Below the pieces are notes generated by a model, which was not told the DNA's origin, ran no database searches, and was given only the letters and a program-made list of their open reading frames with translations. Positions 31,630-36,114 of a stretch of 36,120 nucleotides of DNA are shown here, one piece after another; position 1 is the first letter of the stretch, and every line of letters begins with the position of its first letter. The position numbers were made by a program, and so were the translations under genes. The DNA comes from Clostridia bacterium. GTDB lineage: Bacteria; Bacillota; Clostridia; Monoglobales; Monoglobaceae. The stretch covers positions 1 to 36,120 of the forward strand of contig JAFSDN010000089.1 of NCBI GenBank assembly GCA_017436245.1, read 5' to 3'.

Positions 31630-32199
31630 ATGGCAGTAAATTATACATATTCATTGCTTGATGAAGTGAAAGAAATTTTGGTGAAAATTAAATCAGCACA
31701 AAAGAAAAAAATATTTGGAAATTGTTATGAACAAAACGATTATATTTTTACTAAAGAAGACGGAAGTACATATTATCCTACATATCCGTCTCATGAATTG
31801 TGGAAATGTCTCAGGAGAAATGGGTTGTCGCATATTCGCTGGCACGATTTGAGGCATACAACAGCAAGTTTGCTTATAATCATTGTTGTGGAAACGGCAG
31901 AATGCCGTTTTAAGCGGAATATATTCCGCAACTTTCAAGCACACAGCTTGAAAGACACGCATGATTGCAATAATGTCGGTCTTTGAAAACCACAGTTGTC
32001 AAAGGAGTTTGCGATGTATCGCAAACTAAAAACGCAAAGCGTTTCACCGACTACGATTATACTGAAGGGTTGGCAAATGAAAGAAATATCCGAGTGGCTT
32101 GGACATGCGGACATAGGAACCACTATGAATATTTATGGTCATATTGATATGGAGCATAAAAAGGAGCTTGGGAATACTTTAAACGGGTTGCTTGCCTGA
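31630..32199 (+). pseudogene. Tyrosine recombinase remnant, truncated and interrupted
   Basis: The two flanking parts are in the same frame and together encode the C-terminal catalytic half of a tyrosine integrase: DEVKEILVKIKSAQ, NDYIFTKEDGSTYYPTYPSH, IRWHDLRHTTASLLI, then after the insertion LKGWQMKEISEWLGHADIGT, with H and Y of GHAD...NIYGH. The N-terminal half and the first catalytic arginine are missing; homology begins near 31645. A 183-bp insertion (31874-32056) splits the gene between LLI and GW, and its stop codon at 31984-31986 ends translation. Removing it restores the usual spacing. The gene ends close to a tRNA-Lys 3' fragment, as expected for a past integration at the same tRNA. 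Confidence 0.85.
31874..32061 (+). mobile_element. Six-hairpin MITE-like insertion
   Basis: A compact element of about 178-183 bp bounded by TTATA at both ends (31874-31878, 32057-32061), a likely target duplication. The ends are imperfect inverted repeats (TATAATCATTGTTGTGG against CACCGACTACGATTATA, 12 of 17 by eye). Inside are six hairpins: AAACGGCA/TGCCGTTT; the perfect palindrome GCGGAATATATTCCGC; CTTTCAAGC/GCTTGAAAG; CTTTGAAAAC/GTTGTCAAAG with one mismatch; AGTTTGCGAT/ATCGCAAACT; AAACGC/GCGTTT. It has no coding capacity. I do not recognise it as a named element. Confidence 0.75.
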
Positions 32200-32296: not shown

Positions 32297-32299
32297 AGG

Positions 32300-32344
32300 T
32301 GGTACACCTTCAGGGACTCGAACCCTGGACACCCTGATTAAGAG
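32300..32344 (-). other. tRNA-Lys(CTT) 3' fragment, attachment site (att)
   Basis: On the minus strand this is the 3' part of a tRNA: anticodon loop CTCTTAA, anticodon stem strand TCAGG, variable loop GTGTC, T arm CAGGG-TTCGAGT-CCCTG, acceptor strand AAGGTGT, A and encoded CCA. The 5' half is missing: the bases before the loop (ATAAGT) cannot pair with TCAGG. Such a 3' fragment next to an integrase marks the end of an element integrated in the tRNA gene; the intact tRNA should stand at the far end of the element, beyond the right edge. Confidence 0.88.
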
Positions 32345-32405
32345 ACTTATCAAAGCATATTTCAGGAAAATTCAAAATCGCTCAAAGCCTTGATTTTACT
32401 GCGTT

Positions 32406-32558
32406 TTTGTGCATTTTAGCTTTTTTTGAAATATGCTGATTTCAGGAGTTTGTGCACTACTTTGTGCACTGGAATGTGCAATGCACATAGACAAAAAAAG
32501 CCGACTGCAAGCGGCAGACGGCGGATTTTTGTATTCAGATAATTTGACTTTGTGCACT
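32406..32558. repeat. TTTGTGCA repeats, probable integrase arm-type sites
   Basis: TTTGTGCATT at 32406, TTTGTGCACT at 32449, 32461 and 32549, and a palindromic variant ATGTGCA-A-TGCACAT at 32474-32488. They cluster between the att site and the integrase stop codon, where arm-binding sites of tyrosine integrases are found. Confidence 0.55.
32493..32522 (-). terminator. Intrinsic terminator of the integrase gene
   Basis: On the minus strand GCCG-T-CTGC pairs with GCAG-T-CGGC (one mismatch) over a CGCTT loop, followed by seven T residues. It lies 12 nt after the integrase stop codon. Confidence 0.75.
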
Positions 32559-33560
32559 AAAATCATTGTTTTCTGTGCCGATGACGAAATCAGCCATAAT
32601 ATTTATTGCTGTTTTCTTGGTGTCCTCGATAACGTGCGTGTATGTGTTCAGAGTGGTTGATATGTTTGCGTGTCCCAGAACTCCCGAAACAGTAGATATA
32701 GGCACGTTGTTTTTTATCATATACGTTGCGGCGGTGTGCCTTAGTCCGTGAAATGTCACGCCCTCAATGCCGTTCTGTTTTGCGAAGTCTCTCCACCAAT
32801 GGGAAGGAGTTTGTAAACACATTATTTTTCCGTTCTGCTGTGTGAATATCCAGTCCTCATCAGCCCACTTGTCACCCCATATATGTTTTTCTCGGAGTTG
32901 CTCATTGTGAAGCCTTATAAGAATATTTTTGAGTATGTCCGGGAGGAAAAGAGAGCGTTCAGACTTCTTTGTTTTGGTTTCGTCCGTGAATGTTCCTACA
33001 CCGTCAACGGTGGAGGCTGCACGTCTGATTGAGAAATAATTCTCGTTAAAATCTATATCCGACCATTTCAGACCTACAATCTCCTGACGTCTCAGACTGC
33101 ACAGAATGGCAAAATAAAACATTGCCTGATACTTTAACGGCTCGGAGCTTATGGCGGTTGTTGCCGCCTTAATTTCGTCCTCTGTAAGTGCTTTCTTTTC
33201 GGGAGCGGTATATTTCGGGGTATCAATGCGGTCACAGGGATTGTTTTTCATATATCCCCATTTAACGCCCTTGCTGAACATAGCCTTGAGCATTTTATAT
33301 ACTGCGTTTCGGGTTCTGGCGCTCTTTACCGGGTCAATGATTCTGTGAAGGTGTGCCGGTGCGACTATATCCAGTTTGAGAGCAGATGCGCTCTTGATGT
33401 GTACGTCCCAGAGCTTGGAATACCATTCAGCGGTTTTCCTTCTCAGACTTTTCTTGACGTGGTGCTGCATCCATTCGCTGTACAGTTCCCCCAGAGTTTC
33501 AGGAACAAAAGAGACGTGCTGCATGAGCAGATCCTCACGCTCGTTGTAAAATTCAAGCAA
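32535..33560 (-). CDS. int: Tyrosine recombinase (element integrase), N-terminally frameshifted
   Basis: The longest intact frame has 341 residues and contains the core-binding domain (about 22-105) and the full catalytic domain: R157 in SLRRQEIVGL, K near 198 in TKTKKSE, H271 and R274 in HGLRH, H297 in LGHANIS, Y307 in NTYTH. The frame is open upstream as far as 33680 and encodes a typical arm-binding domain (EKYLLRLSLGFDDFGKRIQ), but it has no start codon there. The likely original start, ATG 33711 with AAAGGG before it, is in another frame. Removing one base from the AAAAGGGG run near 33671-33677 joins the two. So the gene is either inactivated, expressed from the weak TTG at 33560 without the arm-binding domain, or rescued by +1 frameshifting. 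It sits next to the att site, as integrases do. Confidence 0.85.
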   Translation of the reverse strand: MLEFYNEREDLLMQHVSFVPETLGELYSEWMQHHVKKSLRRKTAEWYSKLWDVHIKSASALKLDIVAPAHLHRIIDPVKSARTRNAVYKMLKAMFSKGVKWGYMKNNPCDRIDTPKYTAPEKKALTEDEIKAATTAISSEPLKYQAMFYFAILCSLRRQEIVGLKWSDIDFNENYFSIRRAASTVDGVGTFTDETKTKKSERSLFLPDILKNILIRLHNEQLREKHIWGDKWADEDWIFTQQNGKIMCLQTPSHWWRDFAKQNGIEGVTFHGLRHTAATYMIKNNVPISTVSGVLGHANISTTLNTYTHVIEDTKKTAINIMADFVIGTENNDFSAQSQII

Positions 33561-33666
33561 GAGCCGTTCTGCTTCTCTGTCATTGTTACATTCTACTACC
33601 TTTGACGGCTGAATTCGTTTTCCGAAATCATCAAAGCCCAGAGAGAGCCGGAGAAGATATTTTCCT

Positions 33667-33711
33667 TAGCCCCTTTTGGTTACGTGTCCTATGGACCTTT
33701 TCTTTTGCATA
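33667..33711 (-). other. Detached start of the integrase gene
   Basis: ATG 33711 opens a 14-codon frame (MQKKRSIGHVTKRG, then TAA at 33667-33669) that reads like the usual basic leader of an arm-binding integrase domain. AAAGGG lies 9-10 nt before the ATG. The rest of the gene continues in the +1 frame. Confidence 0.7.
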
Positions 33712-33736: not shown

Positions 33737-33765
33737 TTGACACAAAGGGGAAACAGCGGTATAAT
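33737..33765 (+). promoter_or_regulatory. Perfect consensus sigma-A promoter
   Basis: TTGACA (33737-33742), exactly 17 nt, then TATAAT (33760-33765). It points rightward, away from the integrase and against the hic/XRE genes, and no protein gene follows on this strand. It drives the small RNA described next. Confidence 0.88.
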
Positions 33766-33778
33766 AACAGTGTTCTTG

Positions 33779-33845
33779 TTATTGCTGTTTGACCCCTACG
33801 GTCAACACAATATCCCTATTATTGCTGTTTGACCCCTGCGGTCAA
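33779..33845 (+). repeat. Two direct copies of a 27-nt hairpin module
   Basis: Copies at 33779-33805 and 33819-33845 begin TTATTGCTGTTTGACCCCT and differ at one base (A/G) in the loop. The period is 40 nt. They form the body of the small RNA. Confidence 0.85.
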
Positions 33846-33860
33846 AGTAATAATATCCCT

Positions 33861-33897
33861 GCCTTGTGTGTTCCAGCACACAGGGCATTTTTATTTT
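33861..33897 (+). terminator. Intrinsic terminator of the small RNA
   Basis: GCCTTGTGTG pairs with CACACAGGGC (one G-T pair) over a TTCCAG loop, followed by ATTTTTATTTTG. Confidence 0.85.
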
Positions 33898-33937: not shown

Positions 33938-34156
33938 TTATAAAAGTTTCAAAAAATCGTCAAGTTCTATGTTTGCCATATTCAATATACTTTTCAAAGT
34001 TCCCTTTGCAACCTCCGAATGGTTCGGAATGATTACTGTGTATGAGCCTTTTTGATATTTGATGTGGCTACCTCTCTGCTTAACAAATTCAAAGCCGAGT
34101 TTTTCAAGTGCTGATATAATTTCCTTTGGAGTGAGTACTGGATATTTTGAGCCCAT
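33938..34156 (-). CDS. hicA: HicA-family mRNA interferase toxin
   Basis: A 72-residue protein with the double-stranded-RNA-binding-like fold of HicA toxins, which cut mRNA. Family motifs: LTPKEIISALEKLGFEFVKQ, RGSHIKY with catalytic H31, VIIPNHSEVAKGTLKSIL. Its start codon overlaps the stop codon of the antitoxin gene by one base (TAATG), which suggests translational coupling and antitoxin excess. Length and motifs are complete, so the toxin is probably active. Confidence 0.92.
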   Translation of the reverse strand: MGSKYPVLTPKEIISALEKLGFEFVKQRGSHIKYQKGSYTVIIPNHSEVAKGTLKSILNMANIELDDFLKLL

Positions 34157-34362
34157 TATATAGCAACCTCCAGTGTGGTAACATAAACTTCAGGATGTGT
34201 TTCTTCCGGGCGGTTATCCTCGTAGTATAAGCTCAAAGCCTCCTTCAGGTTGGCTGTAGCCTCGTCAATGGTTTTTCCCTGAGAAGCAACACCGCTGTGA
34301 ATGTCGGTTGCTACATACCAGTTATCTTCTTTTTGGATGATGATTGTGCATTTGATTGACAT
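34156..34362 (-). CDS. hicB: HicB-family antitoxin
   Basis: A 68-residue protein with the HicB partial RNase H-like fold (CTIIIQKEDNWYVATDIHSG, GKTIDEATANLKEALSLYY). It binds and blocks HicA. It lacks the C-terminal DNA-binding domain seen in longer HicB proteins, so it may not regulate its own promoter. ATG 34362 is chosen because AAGGAGG lies just upstream; the frame is open to 34401 without support. The antitoxin gene comes first, the reverse of E. coli hicAB. Confidence 0.88.
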   Translation of the reverse strand: MSIKCTIIIQKEDNWYVATDIHSGVASQGKTIDEATANLKEALSLYYEDNRPEETHPEVYVTTLEVAI

Positions 34363-34390
34363 ATAAAAGCCTCCTTGTGGTTTATTTTTA

Positions 34391-34417
34391 ATTATATTCA
34401 AGTTTTATATTTTTCAA
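34391..34417 (-). promoter_or_regulatory. Possible promoter of hicBA
   Basis: On the minus strand TTGAAA (34417-34412) and TATAAT (34396-34391) lie about 30 nt before the hicB start. The 15-nt spacer is shorter than ideal, so this is tentative. It overlaps the decayed tail of the upstream regulator gene. Confidence 0.4.
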
Positions 34418-34499: not shown

Positions 34500-34754
34500 C
34501 TACTCCGCATTGGTGACAAGGTGAGTGTTTTGTGTTTCTGAATAGGCGTTGCTGTTGTTTTGAAATTCTGTTCTGCCGATTAAGTAATCAACAGTTACAT
34601 CGAAGAAATCAGCTAATAAAATAAGCATTTCGGAATTAGGTTCTCGCTTTTCTTTTTCGTAGTTGAAGTATGTTGTATAAGCTATATTTAACTTGTGTGC
34701 AACTTGCCGCATATTTAATTTTTTTTGTATTCTTAATTCTTTCAAACGTATCAT
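34500..34754 (-). CDS. XRE-family regulator, truncated by an amber codon
   Basis: An 84-residue protein. An HTH_3 DNA-binding domain fills residues 1-62 (IRLKELRIQKKLNMRQVAHK, YTTYFNYEKEKREPNSEMLI, FDVTVDYLIGR). The C-terminal tail that usually helps dimerisation is cut off by TAG, while its coding sequence is still present downstream. The DNA-binding part is complete, so it may still act as a repressor. ATG 34754 has AAGGAG upstream; a GTG at 34763 overlaps that site. A GGTCG-N5-CGACC operator lies 18 nt before the start. Confidence 0.85.
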   Translation of the reverse strand: MIRLKELRIQKKLNMRQVAHKLNIAYTTYFNYEKEKREPNSEMLILLADFFDVTVDYLIGRTEFQNNSNAYSETQNTHLVTNAE

Positions 34755-34771
34755 AAAAGTCACTCCTTATG

Positions 34772-34788
34772 AGGTCGGAAATCGACCT
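34772..34788. promoter_or_regulatory. Palindromic operator before the short XRE gene
   Basis: AGGTCG-GAAAT-CGACCT, a perfect 6-bp inverted repeat with a 5-bp centre. It matches the site at 35215-35229 and is at the same distance from a start codon, so it is probably bound by one or more of the XRE regulators here. Confidence 0.68.
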
Positions 34789-34800
34789 TGATTATTTTCC

Positions 34801-35196
34801 CTATGCGTTCAACTTTCTTTCAAGCTCGGATTCGGGAGCGGTATATTTTTCATTGTCGGTTAGATCCTCGGTGTAGTCCTGCACTTTGTCCTTTCCGGTT
34901 GGGTTCAGTTTGTTGTAGTTGGTGAGAAGCTGTTCCTCATCAGCGGCGAGTGTGTCCGCTTTCTTCCCAGAAGGGTTATATCTTTCGTTGGGGTTGTCAA
35001 CCCACCCCATAAGATAAACCGGGGAACATTCAAGGGCTTTTGCTAAAGGCTCAATAATTGAAATCGGCATATCCTCAATGTCTGAATTTTCGTATCTATA
35101 CACAGTAGCACGATTTTTATTTATGATTTTTGCAACATCTTCAACCGTTTTTCCGATTTGTTTACGACGGTTTTTTATTCTTTCATTGATTGTCAT
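34801..35196 (-). CDS. XRE-family transcriptional regulator
   Basis: A 131-residue protein. An HTH_3 domain (about 1-65; INERIKNRRKQIGKTVEDVA, NRATVYRYENSDIEDMPIS, LECSPVYLMGW) is followed by the tail DNPNERYNPSGKKADTLAAD and LLTNYNKLNPTGKDKVQDYT. It resembles phage or ICE repressors, but no peptidase domain is present, so control is not by self-cleavage. ATG 35196 is preferred over ATG 35205 because AAGGG lies 9 nt before it. Its tail is nearly the same at DNA level as that of the next regulator upstream. Confidence 0.87.
   Translation of the reverse strand: MTINERIKNRRKQIGKTVEDVAKIINKNRATVYRYENSDIEDMPISIIEPLAKALECSPVYLMGWVDNPNERYNPSGKKADTLAADEEQLLTNYNKLNPTGKDKVQDYTEDLTDNEKYTAPESELERKLNA
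34845..34998 (-). repeat. Duplicated regulator tail, copy 1
   Basis: This 154-bp coding stretch is about 88% identical by eye to 35427-35580 without gaps. It encodes the NPNERYNPSGKKA-to-NEK tail of the 34801-35196 regulator. Confidence 0.85.
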
Positions 35197-35214
35197 TTTA
35201 ATCATCCCTTATGT

Positions 35215-35229
35215 GGTCGAAAATCGACC
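35215..35229. promoter_or_regulatory. Palindromic operator before the middle XRE gene
   Basis: GGTCG-AAAAT-CGACC, 18 nt before ATG 35196. About 50 bp around it (35213-35264) repeats 34771-34822 with few changes, including codons for a RKLNA-like gene end. Confidence 0.68.
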
Positions 35230-35286
35230 TTGATTATTTTCCCTATGCGTTCAACTTTCTTTTCAACAACAATTCGGGAAGAAAAA
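35230..35286 (-). other. Remnant of a regulator gene end between two XRE genes
   Basis: The sequence CTATGCGTTCAACTTTCTTT here is the same as the final codons (ERKLNA stop) of the 34801-35196 gene. It is no longer joined to any gene, so the upstream regulator probably once ended here and had its last codons replaced. Confidence 0.5.
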
Positions 35287-36114
35287 CTAATAAATTATTT
35301 TTTCCTCGATTGGCGGTTGCAGTGTGCCTTTGGTTTCCTTGCCTCCCCATGCGGCAATTTGGTATTCGGGTCCTGCCGGAAGTTCCGATTTTGAAAAAGG
35401 CGAAGGTTTTAAATTAGTATTCGTAAATTTTTCATTGCCGGTTAGATCCTCGGTGTAGTCTTGTACTTTGTCTTTTCCGGTTGGGTTCAGCTTATTATAA
35501 TTATCAAGGAGCTGTTCCTCATCGGCGGCGAGTGTGCCCGCTTTCTTCCCGGAGGGGTTGTATCTTTCGTTGGGGTTGTCTGTTCTACAAGTGAGGTAGT
35601 CTACAGAACAGTTGAAATATTCAGAAAGTTTTAATATAACATCTATTCTGGGGTAAAAGTTTCTACTCTTCATTTCTGACAATAAACTGCGGTTTATATT
35701 ACACTCATCAAGTGCTGTGTGTAGGCTCATATTTTTTTTATGAGCAATTTCTTGTATACGTTCTGCTATGTTAGAAGCAGAATGAATGTCATTTAGCTTT
35801 GTGGACTGTTTGCTGTATAAAATGCTTATTAAAAAGTCTATGTCATAATTCATTGCATTTGAGACACTAACAAGAGTTTCAAAAGACGGTATTATGCTTT
35901 GTTTTGTTTTTGGGTGTTCATCCCTTTCAAGCATAGAAATATAGCCTTTACTCAGCCCAGACATTTTAGAAAACTCATCCATTGTAAGATTATTATTCAT
36001 CCTATACTGCTTAATTAGTTCTCCTAAAGTCACATTTGGCATGAGGATTTTTGTGTGATGTGGATTATTTTCTTCGTCTCGTTCTCCACGTTCTATTGGA
36101 ACATCAAAGCCCAT
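35287..36114 (-). CDS. Double-HTH XRE regulator, possibly continuing past the window edge
   Basis: Up to 275 residues are visible. It carries two HTH_3 domains: residues about 28-92 (LGELIKQYRMNNNLTMDEFS, LSKGYISMLERDEHPK) and about 113-175 (ERIQEIAHKKNMSLHTALDE, RSLLSEMKSRNFYPRID, CSVDYLTCRTDNP). The same tail as the middle regulator follows, then a tail ending YQIAAWGGKETKGT...PPIEEKIIY. The second half alone would be a complete regulator, so the gene looks like a fusion or tandem duplication. ATG 36114 is only 6 nt from the window end and has no visible ribosome site. The true start may lie outside or be ATG 36042, which also lacks a clear site. Confidence 0.75.
   Translation of the reverse strand: MGFDVPIERGERDEENNPHHTKILMPNVTLGELIKQYRMNNNLTMDEFSKMSGLSKGYISMLERDEHPKTKQSIIPSFETLVSVSNAMNYDIDFLISILYSKQSTKLNDIHSASNIAERIQEIAHKKNMSLHTALDECNINRSLLSEMKSRNFYPRIDVILKLSEYFNCSVDYLTCRTDNPNERYNPSGKKAGTLAADEEQLLDNYNKLNPTGKDKVQDYTEDLTGNEKFTNTNLKPSPFSKSELPAGPEYQIAAWGGKETKGTLQPPIEEKIIY
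35427..35580 (-). repeat. Duplicated regulator tail, copy 2
   Basis: Partner of 34845-34998; codes for the same tail in the double-HTH regulator. Differences include a run of G/A changes around the NYNKLN codons, many of them silent. Confidence 0.85.

Follow-up and report, generated by a model that had tools for sequence, protein, structure and literature searches.

The window (the whole stretch of 36,120 nt analysed here) contains a full-consensus promoter that faces away from a tyrosine integrase gene (int) and has no protein gene behind it. This raises the question of what such a promoter serves. The earlier note had proposed a stand-alone, C-rich small RNA that may restrain the integrase or target host genes. 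The features concerned are listed in Table 1.

Table 1. Coordinates of the promoter, the predicted RNA and the adjoining genes in the window
Feature	Position	Strand	Remarks
Tyrosine integrase	32535..33710	-	full-length frame from ATG 33710
Promoter TTGACA-17-TATAAT, sigma70/sigmaA full consensus	33737..33765	+	divergent from int; -35 start to int ATG 27 bp
Predicted non-coding RNA, ~121 nt	33772..33892	+	fold z = -8.3; no sense ORF listed by small-ORF scan
Module 1: CCUAC-loop hairpin, then unpaired UCCCU	33774..33816 (approx.)	+	fold and module alignment
Module 2: CCUGC-loop hairpin, then unpaired UCCCU	33814..33859 (approx.)	+	fold and module alignment
Intrinsic terminator, one-directional: 12-bp stem, 4-nt UCCA loop, U5 tail	33860..33892	+	terminator scan, fold
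hicB-hicA toxin-antitoxin pair	33938..34401	-	HicA by Pfam; partner DUF7387/HicB-like; convergent with the RNA
Three XRE-type regulators	34500..36114	-	middle gene 34801-35205

The promoter and the predicted RNA

The -35 hexamer TTGACA (33737-33742) and the -10 hexamer TATAAT (33760-33765) are separated by a spacer of 17 nt. Scanning of both strands confirmed that this is the only 12/12 promoter match in the window, and none of 3000 dinucleotide shuffles of the region upstream of int reached that score. The 330 kb sampled from the same genome contained 17 perfect promoters, about one per 20 kb, so that such a match is infrequent there without being exceptional. The statement that no protein gene follows also held, as no plausible ORF was present on either strand of the RNA region, and a small-ORF scan of both strands found no ORF of note.

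The predicted RNA lies where the earlier note had placed it, divergent from int and beside hicBA, and is convergent with hicA. Its two modules recur with a period of 40 nt, share 36 of 46 aligned columns, and both contain TTTGACCCCTNCGGTCAA hairpins and TATCCCT. The local fold of each module was predicted as a hairpin of 13-16 bp with a CCUAC or CCUGC loop, which is kept in both copies despite their differing 3' arms. In the free minimum, however, module 1 pairs with module 2 over a long range (-47.7 kcal/mol), the twin hairpins being about 3 kcal/mol costlier (-44.8). Thus the modules, their period and the unpaired C-rich motifs stood as first described, but twin hairpins were not the preferred fold. 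In the predicted folds, local and long-range alike, UCCC was unpaired (P about 0.66-1), and the UCCC and CCCCU segments were mostly open in both. Against shuffles, fold z was -8.3 for the whole RNA and -6.6 with the terminator removed. The clean terminator reported after the modules was recovered as the top-scoring one of the scanned region, with a stem-loop at 33860-33887. Promoter, terminator and predicted fold are read directly from the DNA; we infer that the RNA is transcribed and stable, and consider a real terminated transcript likely (probability about 0.8).

The best explanation is a gene for a C-rich small RNA. The strong vegetative promoter, the two duplicated hairpin modules and the intrinsic terminator would form a self-contained sRNA gene, encoding no protein, on a tRNA-type integrative island. 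The RNA would pair antisense, its CCCCU loops and unpaired UCCCU serving as Shine-Dalgarno-blocking seeds as in LhrC, RsaE and related C-rich sRNAs, and the duplicated module would supply redundant binding sites. In LhrC, which prevents ribosomes from binding, redundant CU-rich/UCCC motifs are spread over a loop, a linker and the loop of the terminator (PMC4132741). By sequence prediction, the window RNA has what is expected of the C-rich (UCCC) sRNAs of Firmicutes, namely its own promoter, an intrinsic terminator, no ORF, and motifs that are unpaired or in loops. Like the LhrC family of Listeria (and RsaE, SprD and FsrA), it is a short sRNA with redundant C-rich UCCC in loop and linker, its own terminator and predicted blocking of ribosome sites. 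Unlike them, it has no sequence or covariance match and sits in a mobile element beside int. It therefore resembles LhrC and RsaE without membership in those families. The working mode is suggested by this resemblance of C-rich, duplicated and exposed motifs, and by analogy we put a C-rich antisense mechanism at slightly below even odds.

The perfect inverted repeats in this unit (TTGACC-N5-GGTCAA, with 40-bp spacing) may also be read as DNA operators for an XRE regulator, overlapping int-strand promoter-like sites (TTGACC-16-AATAAT). They adjoin three HTH genes, and a minus-strand promoter-like match of 10/12 was located at 33845-33818. However, they lie between promoter and terminator, the copies also agree exactly in the asymmetric stretches of the modules (TATTGCTG, TATCCCT), and by inspection no such palindrome occurs near int in the closest related elements (L045, L046 and L054), which makes operators improbable.

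Homologues of the RNA and conservation of the promoter

Rfam searches at gathering and permissive thresholds gave no relevant match to the window RNA, the Rfam covariance models of LhrC and RsaE did not match it, and blastn found none among phage and plasmid records. No convincing homologue was obtained by blastn and covariance model from 51 genomes of its order. The covariance search for homologues, which the earlier note had proposed for ICEs and prophages, was run with model R1 on these 51 and on 391 genomes of the class, where only the window rose above noise; the 391 genomes are part of the class, and the result indicates rarity rather than absence. Several matches were rejected: two weak ones to model R1 (a tandem repeat and a match with a long insert), a blastn match in G034 to 27 nt of the terminator region that was taken as chance, and pattern-scan matches in viral contigs, which on reading or by model were GC-rich coding sequence or simple palindrome repeats. 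Within the databases and genomes searched, the RNA is an orphan. Its fold lacks covariation support because no homologue was found, and the modules, whose conservation in related elements had been named as a point on which the candidate would stand or fall, are not conserved there. On this point the RNA fails and the promoter passes.

The nearest kin of the integrase were found in G101 (63% identity), G312 (57%) and G499 (about 52-54% by alignment), followed by G150 and G135 (42-45%) and by more remote sequences. All three closest relatives found (L045, L046 and L054) had a divergent promoter with 17-bp spacing 29-61 bp upstream of int: TTGACT-TATACT at 29 bp, TTGACA-TATAAT at 43 bp and TTGACA-TATAAT at 61 bp, compared with 27 bp in the window. 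Two of them scored 12/12 and one 10/12. Shuffling of the int-upstream regions gave 12/12 in 0 of 3000 cases for each, and the 10/12 case was reached by 79 of 3000. The spacers share nothing between the window and its relatives, so the hexamers appear to be kept by selection. Among about 25 more distant integrases, whose start codons were assigned only roughly, no divergent match within 120 bp exceeded 10/12, a score reached in one or two loci; in L066 an 11/12 promoter beyond 120 bp led into an ORF. L011, the sole close relative from a named genome, is cut by a contig edge upstream of int, and viral contigs searched with integrase, XRE and HicA yielded no relatives or only distant integrases (at most 29%). 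As judged from these comparisons, the outward promoter is a regular and conserved part of the loci of this integrase subfamily, and it is the promoter that lasts, not the RNA sequence.

What follows the promoter differed between the relatives. Two of them carried a short RNA with a terminator (fold z -5.9 and -5.0), and the RNAs at the equivalent site had no C-rich module in common with the window RNA. In L045 a two-hairpin RNA of 76 nt with a 14-bp terminator was predicted, ending at the stop of an XRE-S24 repressor gene that precedes int. Over 76 aa, the middle XRE regulator of the window shares 57% identity with this repressor adjoining int, and by that measure the window element is akin to L045 in its repressor as well. 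L054 had no terminator near the promoter, which was followed by an ORF and an xis-like HTH_17 gene. In L046 the predicted RNA (97 nt) overlaps, with its own 3' end, the 3' end of a convergent ORF. This ORF encodes a hydrophobic peptide of 26 aa (MDKALEYVLLIIVLLALKEIIRYIKK) that matched no family model, and it is equipped with a strong ribosome site and an 11/12 promoter of its own. This ORF and its antisense RNA (L046 2993-3160), beside yefM-yoeB in the related island, are probably a type I toxin-antitoxin pair.

The L046 arrangement follows the plan of TxpA/RatA-type systems such as C. difficile CD2517.1-RCd8 and its kin (compare PMC6563280), whose RNA is, like that of the window, short, terminated and carried by a mobile element. 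By the same plan the window RNA could be a type I antitoxin, complementary to the end of the mRNA for a small hydrophobic toxin. A toxin ORF was looked for opposite the RNA and not found; the one ORF there, of 28 codons, shows no membrane character, lacks a ribosome site and matches no family, and the next gene is hicA. This explanation is thus very improbable for the window.

It is conceivable, though we consider it rather unlikely, that the subfamily maintains a conserved expression slot for RNAs of element maintenance or silencing, in which the outward promoter at the start of int stays fixed and unrelated units (C-rich sRNA, type I antitoxin, xis leader) are exchanged behind it. The regulatory RNAs of islands in uncultured Clostridia are hardly charted, and more of them could simply be sought behind strong promoters that stay in place beside int while the RNA changes. 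The arrangement also suggests a testable way in which the islands may stay quiet.

The integrase as a target, and a role in cis

Restraint of the integrase by pairing of the RNA with its AAAGGGG ribosome site, as first suggested, was not supported. When gene starts were ranked by their pairing with the open C-rich segments of the RNA, the int start region came 54th of 251, and 10% of shuffled start regions paired equally well, which is not significant. The ranking covered about 330 kb of the genome and used a simple script (ORFs of at least 120 codons, start chosen by ribosome-site score) with energies that ignore target structure; for hicB and xre1, the starts entered were 1-3 bases off the ATG. 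Many ribosome sites paired equally well with the C-rich motifs, so int was not special and the ranking is uninformative about targets. The equivalent test in relatives beat shuffles in L045 (0.5%) but not in L046 (64%), and pairing with int is therefore not a common trait. The int frame of the window reads MQKKRSIGHVTKRG-stop-GKYLLRLSLGFDDFGKRIQPSKVV: its codon 15 is an in-frame TAA (about 33666-33668), and the relatives have no stop there. Either the gene is broken, or it restarts downstream without the N-terminal domain, or the stop is an assembly error. Of the proposed stand-alone sRNA gene of Gram-positive type, the anatomy thus fits and the position of the promoter is conserved in relatives, but the modules are not conserved and restraint of int is unsupported.

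Because the conserved part is the promoter, an additional or alternative role in cis at int has to be considered, and the promoter probably influences int in cis as well. It may even be the promoter itself that matters. Strong transcription away from int, starting a few dozen bases from its start codon, would compete with a weak int promoter or collide with repressor or hicBA transcripts and keep int silent, and the terminator would merely end the opposing transcript. The promoter position is kept in four of four members of the subfamily and the RNA is not; genes lie upstream on the int strand in the window, L045 and L046, and the scan listed no minus-strand terminator-like site between hicA and int. 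However, the promoter of L054 serves an xis-like operon, and a plain early-operon promoter would equally explain the conservation. L046 has an int-strand terminator by inspection, and with a broken int frame the window may have nothing left to restrain. We regard silencing of int by the promoter itself as possible but doubtful.

Other features of the window

By inspection, 32299-32350, downstream of int, resembles the 3' half of a tRNA-Lys(CUU) gene, and ARAGORN found no whole tRNA. It is followed by TTTGTGCACT repeats at about 32446-32560; together they are probably the attachment site and the arm sites of the integrase. A 56-bp repeat is present in near-identical copies (96%) upstream of two XRE genes (34765-34830 and 35205-35265). 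It contains the palindrome GGTCGNAAATCGACC and ATAGGGA, the latter being the complement of UCCCUAU in the small RNA.

An integrase pseudogene at 31630-32199 contains a dispersed repeat of about 190 bp (31874-32062), a string of short hairpins with the ends TATAATCATTG...ACTATTATA, which had no match in Rfam. Three further copies, 87-91% identical, were found in the 330 kb sampled (G000 C82:19891-20078, C82:35454-35642 and C73:4813-5000). Their stems are constant and their loops variable, and the repeat is MITE-like.
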